NCBI RefSeq assembly: GCF_000003605.2
Contig: NW_003109120.1
Coordinates: forward strand, 21,444-52,708
From: Saccoglossus kowalevskii
Taxonomy: Eukaryota > Hemichordata > Enteropneusta > Harrimaniidae
DNA length: 31,265 nucleotides
Direction of reading: 5' to 3'
Shown here in pieces: positions 13,201-22,200 of the stretch. Made by a program: the position numbers and the translations under genes. Position 1 is the stretch's first letter. Every line of letters begins with the position of its first letter. The notes beneath the pieces were generated by a model that ran no database searches, was not told the DNA's origin, and saw only the letters and a program-made list of their open reading frames with translations.

Positions 13201-16200
13201 ATATCTGCATGGGATCTGTGCAATATATGCTGCTGATCTGTGTGATATGTGCAAAAGATCTGTGCATTATCTGCAGAATATGTGCAAGAGATCTGTACGA
13301 TATCTTCAGGATATATATCTGCTTGCCGATCTGTGTGATATCTGCAGGAGATCTGTGTGATACCTTCAGGAGATCTGTATGATATCTACAGAATGTATAT
13401 CTGCAGGAGATCTTTATGATATCTGCAGGAGATCTGTGTGTTATCTGCAGGAGATCTGTGTGATATCTGCAGGAGATCTCTGTGATATCTGTATCTTCAG
13501 GAGGTCTGTATGATATCTACAGAATGTATATCTGCAGGAGATCTGTGTGACATCTGCAGGAGATCTGTGTGACATCTGCAGGAGATCTCTGTGATATCTG
13601 CAGGAGATCTCTGTGATATCTGCAGGAGATCTCTGTGATATCTGCAGGAGATCTCTGTGATATCTGCAGGAGATCTCTGTGATACCTGTATCTTCAAGAG
13701 GTCTGTATGATATCTACAGAATGTATATCTGCAAGAGATCTGTGTGATATCTGCAGAAGATCTGTGTGATACATGTACCTTCAGGAGGTCTGTATGATAT
13801 CTACAGAATGTATATCTGCAAGAAATCTGTGTGATATCTGCAGGAGATCTGTGTGATATCTGCAGGAGATCTGTGTGATATCTTCAGGAGGTCTGTATAT
13901 CTACAGAATATATAATTATCTGCAAGAGATCTTTATGATATCTGCAGCAAATCTGTGCAACATATACAAGAGATATTTGCAATAACTGTAAGAAATCTTC
14001 AGCAGATTCTCAACAATTCATTGTGAAAGTCTTGGCTGAGTGTATTGTCAATTTAAAATTTGTGAAACTTGTTCTGTTGTTCCATATTCTTATAACCTGT
14101 GCAGATACCACTGATAAGGCGCAACTAGTTACAATGACTTTGATTACCAACTTTATCACTTTTTAACTGTACATTGTATGTGCATTCTTGCCTAATAATG
14201 ATATTTTATTCCTTTTAGCTATCCAGACAGCCGTAAATGGTATTTTAGACAATATTTAATGCTTTGTGTAGCTTTAGCTATTGCTATAGACTGTTTTACT
14301 GACAAAAAGTTATTCTCAAATCGTAGCCTAGAATCTATTTCTGTGAGACCCTTTACAAAAGCCTAGGATCATTGTCCTTTTTATCTTATTAGACATGCAA
14401 AGTTATTCAAACATCACTGAAGTTTGGGCAGTAGATATCATGAGTTGAAATAAATGTTAAAATTAATGATTTAGATTTGTGGTTATTTTAAATGTTAAAT
14501 TATTTGTACAGGAATTAGGTGAAACGTCGCGGCAGTTAGCAGAACTTACAAAAGATGGCTTTGATAAAATCAAAAAAACAGATGAAATTGAGGAAAATGA
14601 AGAACCGGAGCGACTCGTCGATTTACTCGATTTCAGTGAAGATCCAGAGGATGATAATTTTGAGGAGTCAAGGGGAGATGAGAACGAAGATTTTTTTAAT
14701 CAGGCATTGGAGGAGAGAAAAGTAATTCTGACTATTTTTATTTTTTTTAAGGTTGAAATAATGAATGAATTTGTGGTTTATTTCTAGGTGTTGGTCTTTG
14801 GGTAACCATCGTGATCATTCCATCATCTTTCAATCTCTCACTACTTTCAAAAATCCTCTCTGATCCTTGACCTTTTTTGGTATTCCTTGGTTTTTTCAGA
14901 ATTCATGGTGATAAATAAAAAAAAAAATATGAAAGTAAACAGAATTTTCTGGATTTATTTGTGGTCAGTTTATTCAGGAAACTTGCAAATCTGAATATGG
15001 TTTTTTGAATTGCATGTGAATATGCTCAGGATTTTGAAGCCAAGGAATACCAAATCAGAGTATTCTACTATCATCTCGGACTATATCGAATTAGAAACTT
15101 TGTACAAAAATACTTAAACCCTGTGAAAAGTGATCTATTCTTCGTTTTAATAGTCAAAATCAGCTTTTATGTGCAGTGTTTTTATACAATAGTTTCTAAT
15201 GCGGTGAAAGATCTTGGATTTATCACTGTAGGGTGGGTGGTGTTGGTGATTACCCGCCATATCCCCTAATTACATGGATCACTGCATTTTAATTTGCAGT
15301 ATGTTGGGTTGTGGATAATCACAACATGGTGCTTGTCAAACGTAATCTCCTATTGACTGATATGACTTCCCCAGTGCTAGTGGAACAAAATGTGGAAAAA
15401 CACTTGAGATGTCCTTTAATTTTAAATGTATTACCCTCTTAAACCATCACTACAATTGTTTTTTCTAGTTGAATGCATGTTTTATATATTCGAATAAGAG
15501 AATGTGGGAAAAAAAAGTAAATTTGATATTTTCAAAGAAAAAAACCTCTACTACATCCTGGGTCATTAAAATGAATTTGTCTCTCATTCTAGTGCAACAC
15601 TGAAACGCGGTGTTAAAACCTCTCTCTTCCCCTTCTAATAATACACAGTCATACAGAGTACCATCTGATTAAAACTGACAACTTTCACTCTTTGGATTCC
15701 ACTTGTACATAATTTACCACTCAAACATAAACGTTAGAAAATTGTAATGATAAATTCAGTATTGCTGATCGAAAAAAAAAGTAGCTCAATGTTATTTATT
15801 CATAGTTATTGACTTGTTAAATAAAATTGTAATGTATGTTTGCATGTGCATGTTTTGATGGAATGACAATCTCCTGCATGTTGTTGAATGTAACTCTCGT
15901 TCATTCCGTAAAGTCGATCATCATCTTTAATATTTTGCATGATGTGGTTTACTTTGTAATGTATGGTAGCTAGAATGATTTTCAATTCCTCAAAGTATCA
16001 GATGTGTATACATTAGATTCAGATGCAAATGACCGTTGTGAGAAAACCATAATACTGTAAAATGACTAATTTTCACTGGGTTTATATTTCGCTGTTTACC
16101 ATTTCAAGCATATTCAGTGGGTTTCAAATTCACGATTTTATCATTTAGATAATGTGTTCTATTCTAAATTTTAAATATTCAGTGGGTTTTAATTTAGCGC

Positions 16201-19200: not shown

Positions 19201-22200
19201 CTCAGTAGCCAATCAAATCTTTTCTTTCTCTTTTTGATAAGGAATTGAAATAATGTAGAACAGGAAAACTAATCTCTACATCTTAAGACTATTTTGCTCT
19301 TTTTGATTTTCTCAACAGTATCTAAATAATAATTTACTAAATATAATAAGTTTAAAGTTTTAAATTGTTTATAAATCTATTAAGTATTATGCTAACTAAC
19401 CCCTGAATTAACCCTCCGCCAAATATATTTTCTTGGCAATATTGTGTGGATACATTAGGTTTGCTACCATGTGTAACTGCACATCACATTGGCAGCTGCC
19501 TGCTCTATCACATCTGCCCTTGTGCTTGAGTTATCTGCCATGGTTCATTATTTGTTCAGTTTCATAAGTTTAACACATAACCATGGTAACGGTATAAGAT
19601 CTCATGCAGTGGCTCTCTCTCATTCTCATCTGATTGTACATCTGCATTTTTTGATTCTAAATATTGGATATCATAACTTTGTATATTAATTGACAGTTGT
19701 CAATGTCAATGTCAAGTTCAGATTTCATGTAAAGCAACAATGTATCTTTCATGCAACATAACACATCGCATGGGACTCGTATCGAACGTAACACATCATA
19801 ATGATCCCTGCTCAAATTAAATCATGTATTACTTCATTACTCATGGAAGTTAAATATCAATGTTATTTGAAATTTATGTTCTTAGCTACGGTAATTAGCA
19901 ACCTAATTGATAGGTGAGCCAAATTTCCGTCATGTTTAAAGCACTGTTGTGTCATGTTCACTATTGAGTCTCATGCGGCTTAACAAAGTAACATACATTG
20001 TTGGTATGAAATTTGAATATACGCTATGTGATGACTGTGGCGATTTATTCGTAATAATTTTTATAAATTATAAGTTTATTAACCTGCTTTTGAGTACAAA
20101 TGTTATACTTGATATGTGTGCGTGAGAACGTTGATGTGCTCTATTGCCAATGCCATTGTCACTGTCACTGTGGGCCATGGTATAAATCACTCCATGCATG
20201 GCCAGCACTCTTTTACAGTATTCTGACTGTTTAAGTTTGCCTGCCACACTGCTTGGTTAATAATTGCTTTAGTTTCACTTTTACTAACATTTTATTTTTC
20301 TTCACATGTTCACAGTTTATTGCTTCGTTTATTTGCTGGATTTCAGATACCTCATTACTTTCATAATAATCGTTTTTTTTCTCTCAGTATTGGCTTTTTC
20401 TCCGTTTTGTTATATTTGTGTTTTTACATGTTTCCATGCTCTGCATTTTCCTGGATTTTGTTGTTTTATTACAAGTGAATGTTCTCATTGCATGGGTAAC
20501 AAAAAAAAGCTTTTCTTGCCAAATTTAGTCACTAATATTATGTCAATCAAGGCAATATATGATCACATGTGCTTATATAATGACATTAGCAGTTGCTTTA
20601 CATGTTTGACCAATCAAAAATAAAGTTTCATTGCCTCTTCCTCATTCTGTGTTATAACCTTTGCTGTGATTGGTCAAAAGATTGGTGATTCCTTATATAA
20701 ATGGTGATGGTGGCACTTCATATTACTACATGGTGTTACAATCATGTATGACTTGTTTTAAATGTTTTTTTTTTCTTTTTTCCCCCCACCTTCTAGGACT
20801 TGAATGACCCATCTAAAAAACTAACAAGAAATGCCAACAAACTAGGTACAGACAAGGAGAAGGATCAAGCAGAGAAAGATGTGGATACTGCTGAAGAAGC
20901 TTCAGAAATGTCAGACAAAGATAGGTAAATGAAAACACTTTTGTACTTTTCAGAACATGTAATCCTAGTGAAGTATTGCCATATTTTTTCAAAGATTTTG
21001 ATCAAGATGTGTTGCCAATGAGTGATTTTAATAGTCCAAAATTAATGAAGAAGATGAAGAAAAAAATTTGCAAAATGTTGCACCATATGATGGTGTTGGG
21101 TCAGAAATAAAAAAGTAATTACATTTTGCCATGTGAGGGCACAATTATCTTACTCAGATGTGGTCAGGTGTCAATTTCTGCGTCATCACAAATGAGGGTA
21201 AATATAGCGTAATTTGCTTTAAAAGGGCTTTTGATTTTCAAATGAATTATTATATATTCACAGTCTCATCCAAGAATATAATTTTGTTAATTTTTTATAA
21301 TCCCACAACATTATGTGGTCAATGTGTAATATTTATTAAATAATGCTTGTATTAAAGATTTTTTTAGATCAATAAACATCCTCTAAAACATTTGGTTCAC
21401 TTCACTAATGCACAAATTCCAAAAATGTGCAAGGTACAAATTTCAAACAGATGTGCACACTAATAAGAAGCAAAACCATTTTTTTTATCCTTGCCCCTAA
21501 AGTTTCAACAAAACTCTCACTATTGTATACATCTAATTCCAGGTTAATATCTTTCGAAGAAGAGAGCCGTCGAGAAGCTGATGAATTTCAGAGGTTGATT
21601 ATGGAAAGCGGTGGTAAGCCGAACCCCCGGCCGTCATCATTACCATTACATGGTGGAGCAAATCCTGATGATGGTAATGCAATTCTAGATCTGTTAGCTA
21701 ATAGTAGTAATCCACCGTCTGATATAACAGAACAGTACACAGGTAGTTCATGTCTCATTTTATCATCTACGCTGGCTGTCCTCAGTATGTATAGATATCG
21801 AACACATCAAACTCAAGCCAGGCAACAACCTTCTGGGATTTCTGTCAAAGTAACTGATTTATTTATTGTAAACTTTGTCATGATATTATACTTGTTTTTA
21901 AATTTATTCAGGGACAAAATAAATAGCAATGATTTTCGCTGGGTATGATTCAGAGAATTACTTATTTTGATCTTAACGTTTTTCTAATGTAAACGTAAAC
22001 CAAATTTCTCAGCTGTAAATTGCTACATAGATTAACGGATGTGACATTTTGGACTAGGGGGCATGCTCAGTATTAGAGCAAAGAAGCTTTCTAGTACTCA
22101 GATATAAACGATAAGTTACAAGGTTTGCAGTATCCTTACTGTAAACATAAAGGTACTAGAAATGCCTGGATTTACAGTTAGTGTGTTCAGTATCTTATGT

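Follow-up and report, generated by a model that had tools for sequence, protein, structure and literature searches.

Candidate acidic cassette exons opening with a shared linker motif after the BAR domain of an ICA1 gene in Saccoglossus kowalevskii

Introduction

The product of the animal gene ICA1, ICA69, is a membrane-bending protein with a role in hormone-vesicle formation. Here we describe an ICA1 gene of the enteropneust Saccoglossus kowalevskii, contained in a stretch of 31,265 nucleotides (nt) referred to as the window (C380:21444-52708 of the genome searched, which comprises 572 Mb in 4,830 contigs), and in particular three consecutive exons, termed E7, E8 and E9, that lie between the sections encoding the arfaptin-type BAR domain and the ICA69 C-terminal domain, and that open with related copies of a linker motif. 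The human ICA69 protein has a single such motif. The locus is like vertebrate ICA1/ICA69 in its domain order, i.e. an arfaptin-type BAR domain followed by the ICA69 C-terminal domain, and in that E9 with the following exon, E10, corresponds to the human linker plus LISLEEE; it differs in having two extra exons with motif copies, which are not known from the human sequence.

ICA69/RIC-19 acts as an effector of RAB-2 during the maturation of dense-core vesicles (PMC3359978). Residues 1-256 of rat ICA69, i.e. without the C-terminal domain, cluster; the C-terminal domain (residues 257-480) is diffuse and spreads PICK1, to which its distal part (84-224) binds (PMC3865253). Both terminal regions of PICK1, N and C, are acidic (PMC4704001), and the ICA1 product described here resembles it as a BAR protein with acidic regions that acts in the same pathway; in ICA1, however, the acidic segments directly follow the BAR domain and are encoded by exons that can be skipped. 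Human ICA1 is alternatively spliced in other ways, with an Alu exon specific to testis (PMC2562518) and, within intron 12, a first exon that is variant-dependent (PMC4678817). Tandem exon duplication with alternative splicing is a well-described class, the pattern being the choice of one exon per group (PMC9013439). The present trio is like described tandem exon duplications (PMC9013439, PMC9741552) in comprising adjacent related exons of one gene with the same start phase, but differs in that the copies can only add to an obligatory E9 and are alike over about 12 residues. Among the papers listed by a search of the open-access literature, the coverage of which is incomplete, none described copies of the linker exon in ICA1.

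Results

A linker motif repeated at the start of E7, E8 and E9

A preliminary description of this DNA, made from its letters alone, had proposed that the three exons begin with one motif, and this observation is confirmed. Each of them starts directly after an AG acceptor, in phase 0, and is followed by GT; E7 and E8 are symmetric, and E9 ends in phase 2 (Table 1). We compared the motifs by BLOSUM62 score with the 1,554 sites, on both strands and including the three exons themselves, at which an AG is followed by 12 open codons. With the E8 motif as query, the top two sites besides itself were E7 (30) and E9 (28), the next site scoring 17; E7 and E9 again led when all 29,875 windows of 12 open codons were compared irrespective of frame, the next window scoring 23. 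The motif score was reached by 11 (E7/E8), 35 (E8/E9) and 3,160 (E7/E9) of 200,000 whole-exon shuffles, and, when shuffling was confined to the 12 residues, by 1, 2 and 149 of 200,000, respectively. Seven of the 12 residues are identical in place between E7 and E8, and six between E8 and E9; over the 36 nt of motif DNA, 20 (E7/E8), 18 (E8/E9) and 17 (E7/E9) bases are identical, values reached by 59, 68 and 12 of 20,000 codon shuffles. The possibility that the three motifs are no more similar than chance was not borne out by these comparisons. No fourth copy was found in the window, the next site summing to 46 compared with 101-114 for the three.

The PF04629 profile of the ICA69 C-terminal domain, which begins in the last BAR residues (YEFNMLK) and has a curated cut-off of 22.4 bits, provides an outside yardstick. 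Without a linker, the match of the C-terminal tail to PF04629 begins only at position 78 (53.5 bits); inserting E7, E8 or E9 shifts its start to position 2, with 73.0, 75.7 and 77.7 bits, respectively. The BAR tail alone gave no match, and the BAR tail with a single exon matched in all three cases (E7 18.4, E8 13.7 and E9 20.2 bits), in each case below the cut-off. Among the controls there were no matches with whole-exon shuffles (0/5), motif shuffles (0/3), deletion of the motif (0/1) or intronic peptides taken after an AG (0/10, sampled from 87, two of them overlapping).

E7 and E8 as candidate cassette exons

E7 and E8 have coding character, with codon log-odds of 0.515 and 0.621 bits per codon, both being held out from a table built on the other nine exons. 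No open intronic window of the same length scored as high, either among the 435 windows of 70 codons or among the 3,090 of 36 codons (overlapping, on both strands, from nine introns, i.e. every one of the ten except the 117-nt intron 4); the leave-one-out scores of the other exons range from -0.262 (the short E2) to 0.542 (E9). The G+C contents of E7 (0.39) and E8 (0.40) are exon-like, that of the introns being 0.33.

E5, which ends the BAR domain, finishes in phase 0, as do E7 and E8. The four in-frame isoforms foreseen in the preliminary description are possible, since the paths through E9, E8+E9, E7+E9 and E7+E8+E9 are all open to the stop codon of the last exon, with 42, 78, 112 and 148 linker residues, respectively, before E10. 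The proposal that E9 is fixed by its phase likewise holds, as the four paths that lack E9 stop at the 13th codon of E10. E7 and E8 thus have the properties of cassettes, each being a multiple of three in length, free of stop codons and skippable in frame. Exchange of one copy for another in frame was not found: joining E7 or E8 to E10 without E9 gives a stop, so that E7 and E8 can only be added to E9, unlike the usual exchange of duplicated exons. E7 and E8 could, however, exclude each other.

Donor sites were scored with a log-odds table that omits the first two intron bases, and by U1 pairing energy. By both measures, the donors of E7 (AAA/GTAATT) and E8 (GAT/GTAATA) are the two weakest of ten, with log-odds of 1.05 and -1.63 (1.35 to 7.59 for the others) and pairing energies of -1.8 and -1.4 kcal/mol (-4.7 to -8.7 for the others), as is expected of skippable exons. 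As a lead only, the intron between E7 and E8 has six UGCAUG sites against 1.3 expected (p 0.005, 200 simulations), an excess which is one of 80 motif-by-intron tests and would not survive correction; the intron between E10 and the next exon, away from the cassettes, has four against 1.0 expected.

Two repeats lie in the introns next to E7. The intron directly upstream contains, at 13136-13998, a minisatellite built of 22-nt units (ATATCTGCAGGAGATCTGTGTG or variants of it), which is possibly variable in length and stands beside the candidate cassette. The intron downstream has a 52-nt inverted repeat, 90% complementary, at 16341-16392 and 16751-16802, with a spacing of 358 nt.

Origin of E7 and E8

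Comparison with the human linker indicates that E9 corresponds to the one linker that vertebrates have. E9+E10 scores 61 against the human linker plus LISLEEE, a score reached by 7 and 6 of 2,000 shuffles. Neither E7 (39; 384 and 323 of 2,000 shuffles) nor E8 (32; 344 and 440 of 2,000) stands out in the same comparison. Since E9 resembles the human linker and E7 and E8 do not, E7 and E8 are likely to be the later additions.

The preliminary description had also proposed that an exon was duplicated twice. The relatedness of the motifs bears this out in part, but copying of whole exons is not borne out, as the exons are alike over about 12 residues and neither their tails nor their introns are alike. 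Any copying would therefore be old, or the motif alone would have been retained; duplication is the putative origin of the E7 and E8 motifs.

We considered whether E7 might be a fused copy of E9+E10, an idea prompted by the likeness of two short peptides, but did not accept this. Whole E7 against E9+E10 was matched by 136 and 62 of 5,000 shuffles with soft gaps and by 1,428 and 488 of 5,000 with strict gaps; E7 minus its motif, by 398 and 176 (soft) and 2,375 and 1,068 (strict) of 5,000. When the E7 tail was aligned locally with E10, the counts were 483 and 662 of 5,000 (gap -11/-1), and 995 and 2,019 of 5,000 (gap -6/-1).

Gene model and domain content

The gene in the window is, judged by its sequence, the animal ICA1 (ICA69). 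Eleven coding exons were placed from splice sites and reading frame (Table 1), the set being without the exon that carries the start codon. The one-linker protein, which has E9 but not E7 or E8, contains an arfaptin-type BAR domain (PF06456, 281.1 bits, residues 23-249), followed by the ICA69 C-terminal domain (PF04629, 136.5 bits; 124.7 bits in the three-linker protein). E5 is 78% identical to the human segment, and a DNA search located it at a single locus in the genome, with no second allele turning up. The arfaptin profile gave nine matches on three contigs of the genome; judged by eye, the place on contig C2732 reads like an arfaptin, and that on contig C3223 may be a distant paralogue. 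At E values of no more than 1, residues 1-335 of the one-linker model matched three distinct sequences of solved structure: two belong to arfaptin-2 and the third, a chance match, is ribosomal; none was of ICA69. ICA1 relatives were not found in viral or prokaryote contigs, as expected for an animal gene.

Two features of the upstream introns stand apart from the linker. The donor at 11250 (GAG/GCAAGT) begins a GC-AG intron and, at 7.59, has the highest log-odds of the ten, in a table that omits the first two intron bases. Intron 4 (12582-12698), within the BAR domain, is 117 nt in length, divisible by three and without an in-frame stop, so that its retention would keep the frame.

Table 1. 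Coordinates of the ICA1 exons, linker motif copies and UGCAUG sites in the window
Feature	Position	Strand	Description	Basis
ICA1 coding exons before E5	7053-7236, 10416-10488, 11126-11249, 12383-12581	+		splice sites and frame
E5	12699..12923	+	final exon of arfaptin-type BAR domain, phase-0 end	open frame, splice sites, Pfam PF06456
E7	14512..14721	+	candidate cassette 1; 210 nt, phase 0-0; motif and acidic tail, charge -18	
E8	19042..19149	+	candidate cassette 2; 108 nt, phase 0-0; motif and acidic tail, charge -7	
E9	20797..20924	+	obligatory linker exon, likely ancestral place; 128 nt, phase 0-2; charge -5	
E10	21543..21742	+	following section of ICA69 C-terminal domain	frame, splice sites, PF04629
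ICA1 exons after E10	23211-23465, 25415-25726	+	the latter carries the stop codon	splice sites and frame
Linker motif copy 1 (E7)	14512..14547	+		motif similarity test
Linker motif copy 2 (E8)	19042..19077	+		motif similarity test
Linker motif copy 3 (E9)	20797..20832	+	likely ancestral position	motif similarity test
Six UGCAUG sites	15011..15941	+	Fox-type; a lead only; 0.3-1.2 kb downstream of E7	

Other elements in the window

Clathrin-box-like sequences, by the pattern L[IVLMF]x[IVLMF][DE], are present in E8 (LLGVE, 19129-19143) and in E10 (LISFE, 21544-21558, the human counterpart of which is LISLE), there being none in E7; the pattern also occurs in 4.8% (E8) and 4.5% (E10) of shuffles, and is taken here as a lead only. 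Two intronic segments, at 11723-12125 and 23841-24520, start with TAGCTCCGCTGTC, end in an approximate complement of TAGCTCCGCTGTC and have related interiors, and by eye could be taken for copies of a single dispersed element; a tandem array with a 157-158-nt unit lies in the second of them. Downstream of ICA1 there is a 33-nt minisatellite at 28834-29710, its first part, 28834-29495, comprising 19.8 copies. At the right end of the window, an open frame that leaves it (30927-31265, MMRRTRSGGKNRGC...) resembles, by eye, the first open reading frame of a retroelement, and at the left end, on the minus strand, a cysteine-rich open frame (503-829, CPCVKC...CDQCDRWQHRKC) appears zinc-finger-like by eye. 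An Rfam scan of the window at gathering scores gave no matches.

Discussion

We propose, with a probability of roughly 0.5, that E7 and E8 are old copies of the start of the linker, which act as additive acidic cassettes that tune the tether between the BAR domain and the C-terminal domain. In this proposal, E9 is obligatory and connects the BAR domain with the C-terminal domain of ICA69, and the upstream E7 and E8 would be diverged copies of the 5' part of E9, each with the motif and an acidic tail of its own. Since E9 is always needed, inclusion of E7 or E8 would repeat the motif and add residues, i.e. 36 (E8), 70 (E7) or 106 (both), and with them a charge of -7, -18 or -25 right after the BAR part, which in the model has 268 residues and a net charge of +13 (K + R against D + E). 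Each motif may extend or cap the final BAR helix; E7 folded alone is predicted to be helical at residues 2-21, at low confidence (mean predicted local distance difference test score 63.8, predicted template modelling score 0.29, single sequence), which is in line with a helix-continuing motif but goes no further. The acidic tail would make the tether to the C-terminal domain longer and may screen the basic BAR surface, weakening its contact with acidic membranes and lowering clustering, such that the strength of ICA69 clustering, whether on membranes or with PICK1, would be set by splicing. Residue 257 of the rat protein, with which its C-terminal domain begins, lies about a dozen residues before the BAR/linker junction, as counted on the human sequence; the linker thus belongs to the proximal part of that domain.

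Several results weigh against this proposal, with respect both to origin and to use. The direct score of E7 against E9 is 15, a value equalled or exceeded by unrelated sites in the site lists; because these two exons fail to rank each other above unrelated sites, the motif family is held together mainly via E8. Beyond the first 12 or so residues there is no clear similarity among the three exons, and their tails are not clearly above shuffles, the lowest count being for the E7 tail against the E9 tail plus E10 (soft gaps, 176 of 5,000 shuffles); five of six comparisons of flanking introns were also like shuffles, the exception being E7/E8 downstream (4 of 200 shuffles). The PF04629 matches of single exons are all below the curated cut-off, and of 11 constructs in which the E7 motif preceded a shuffled E7 tail only 3 matched, one of them reaching the native 18.4 bits, so that the support of the profile for E7 is modest and its tail, for which the profile gives none, adds nothing specific. 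The codon scores are raised by acidic composition and vary among exons, and hence lend support to E7 and E8 short of proof. Of the 1,091 GT sites in the gene span, 18% score as well as the E8 donor (4.9% for E7, 1.4% for E9 and 0.4% for E5), a share that also fits an exon that is never spliced; the use of E7 and E8 is therefore uncertain, and either could be constitutive or unused. Finally, the linker-proximal rat fragment ICAC1-83 failed to bind PICK1 (PMC3865253), implying that the linker need not work via PICK1.

With respect to origin, the main rival is that the motif reflects constraint and not duplication, unrelated new exons after the BAR helix having converged on an opening that continues it; the unlike tails and flanks mean that a need common to any exon in this position could also explain the motif. 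The serine codons, which are of different classes (AGT in E8, TCG in E7 and TCT in E9), fit convergence, as does the low-confidence helix predicted for E7. We nevertheless consider convergence unlikely, given the number of residues that E7 and E8, and E8 and E9, share in place, and given that copying is the simpler account for neighbouring exons, although the latter is an argument from simplicity. With respect to use, E7 and E8 may both be constitutive, in which case the linker, with its three related repeats of the motif, would simply be long and would not be tuned. This is a tentative but credible alternative, since the three-motif protein is open through to the stop codon and both exons are coding-like; against it, the two exons hold the two weakest donors of ten (1 in 45 for random ranks) and are both symmetric, and the human protein has one such motif. 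Far less probable, in our view, is that E7 is an alternative last exon giving a form without the C-terminal domain. Its donor is weak, readthrough past 14721 would add 21 codons up to a stop at 14785-14787, and an AATAAA follows at 14914, with no AATAAA/ATTAAA-type hexamer within 600 nt of E8; but base composition predicts, as a rough estimate, about one such hexamer per 600 nt, and E7 retains a GT donor, placed such that the exon length is exactly divisible by three.

As is expected of tandem exon duplication, similarity above the chance level was found for the neighbouring pairs E7/E8 and E8/E9 and was weaker for E7/E9, whereas likeness over most of the exon or into the flanking introns, which is usual for recent tandem duplications but not defining for old ones, was not found. 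We class the gene as ICA1 with candidate cassette exons; the trio is assigned neither to the established tandem exon duplications nor to the mutually exclusive exons. The E7/E8 feature is real and probably functional, and of an ordinary kind. A more elaborate and rather doubtful possibility is that the linker is counted by splicing, with zero to two extra BAR-capping motifs with acidic tails, the length and charge of which would adjust, from one cell type to another, how far this dense-core-vesicle protein clusters on membranes, perhaps with Fox-type control.

If the isoforms of additive acidic cassettes proposed here are made, they would constitute a natural series in which the length and charge of a BAR-adjacent linker could be related to membrane clustering, PICK1 pairing and secretory vesicle formation. 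They would also provide a clean case of related exons that are used additively with one obligatory copy, instead of being exchanged.

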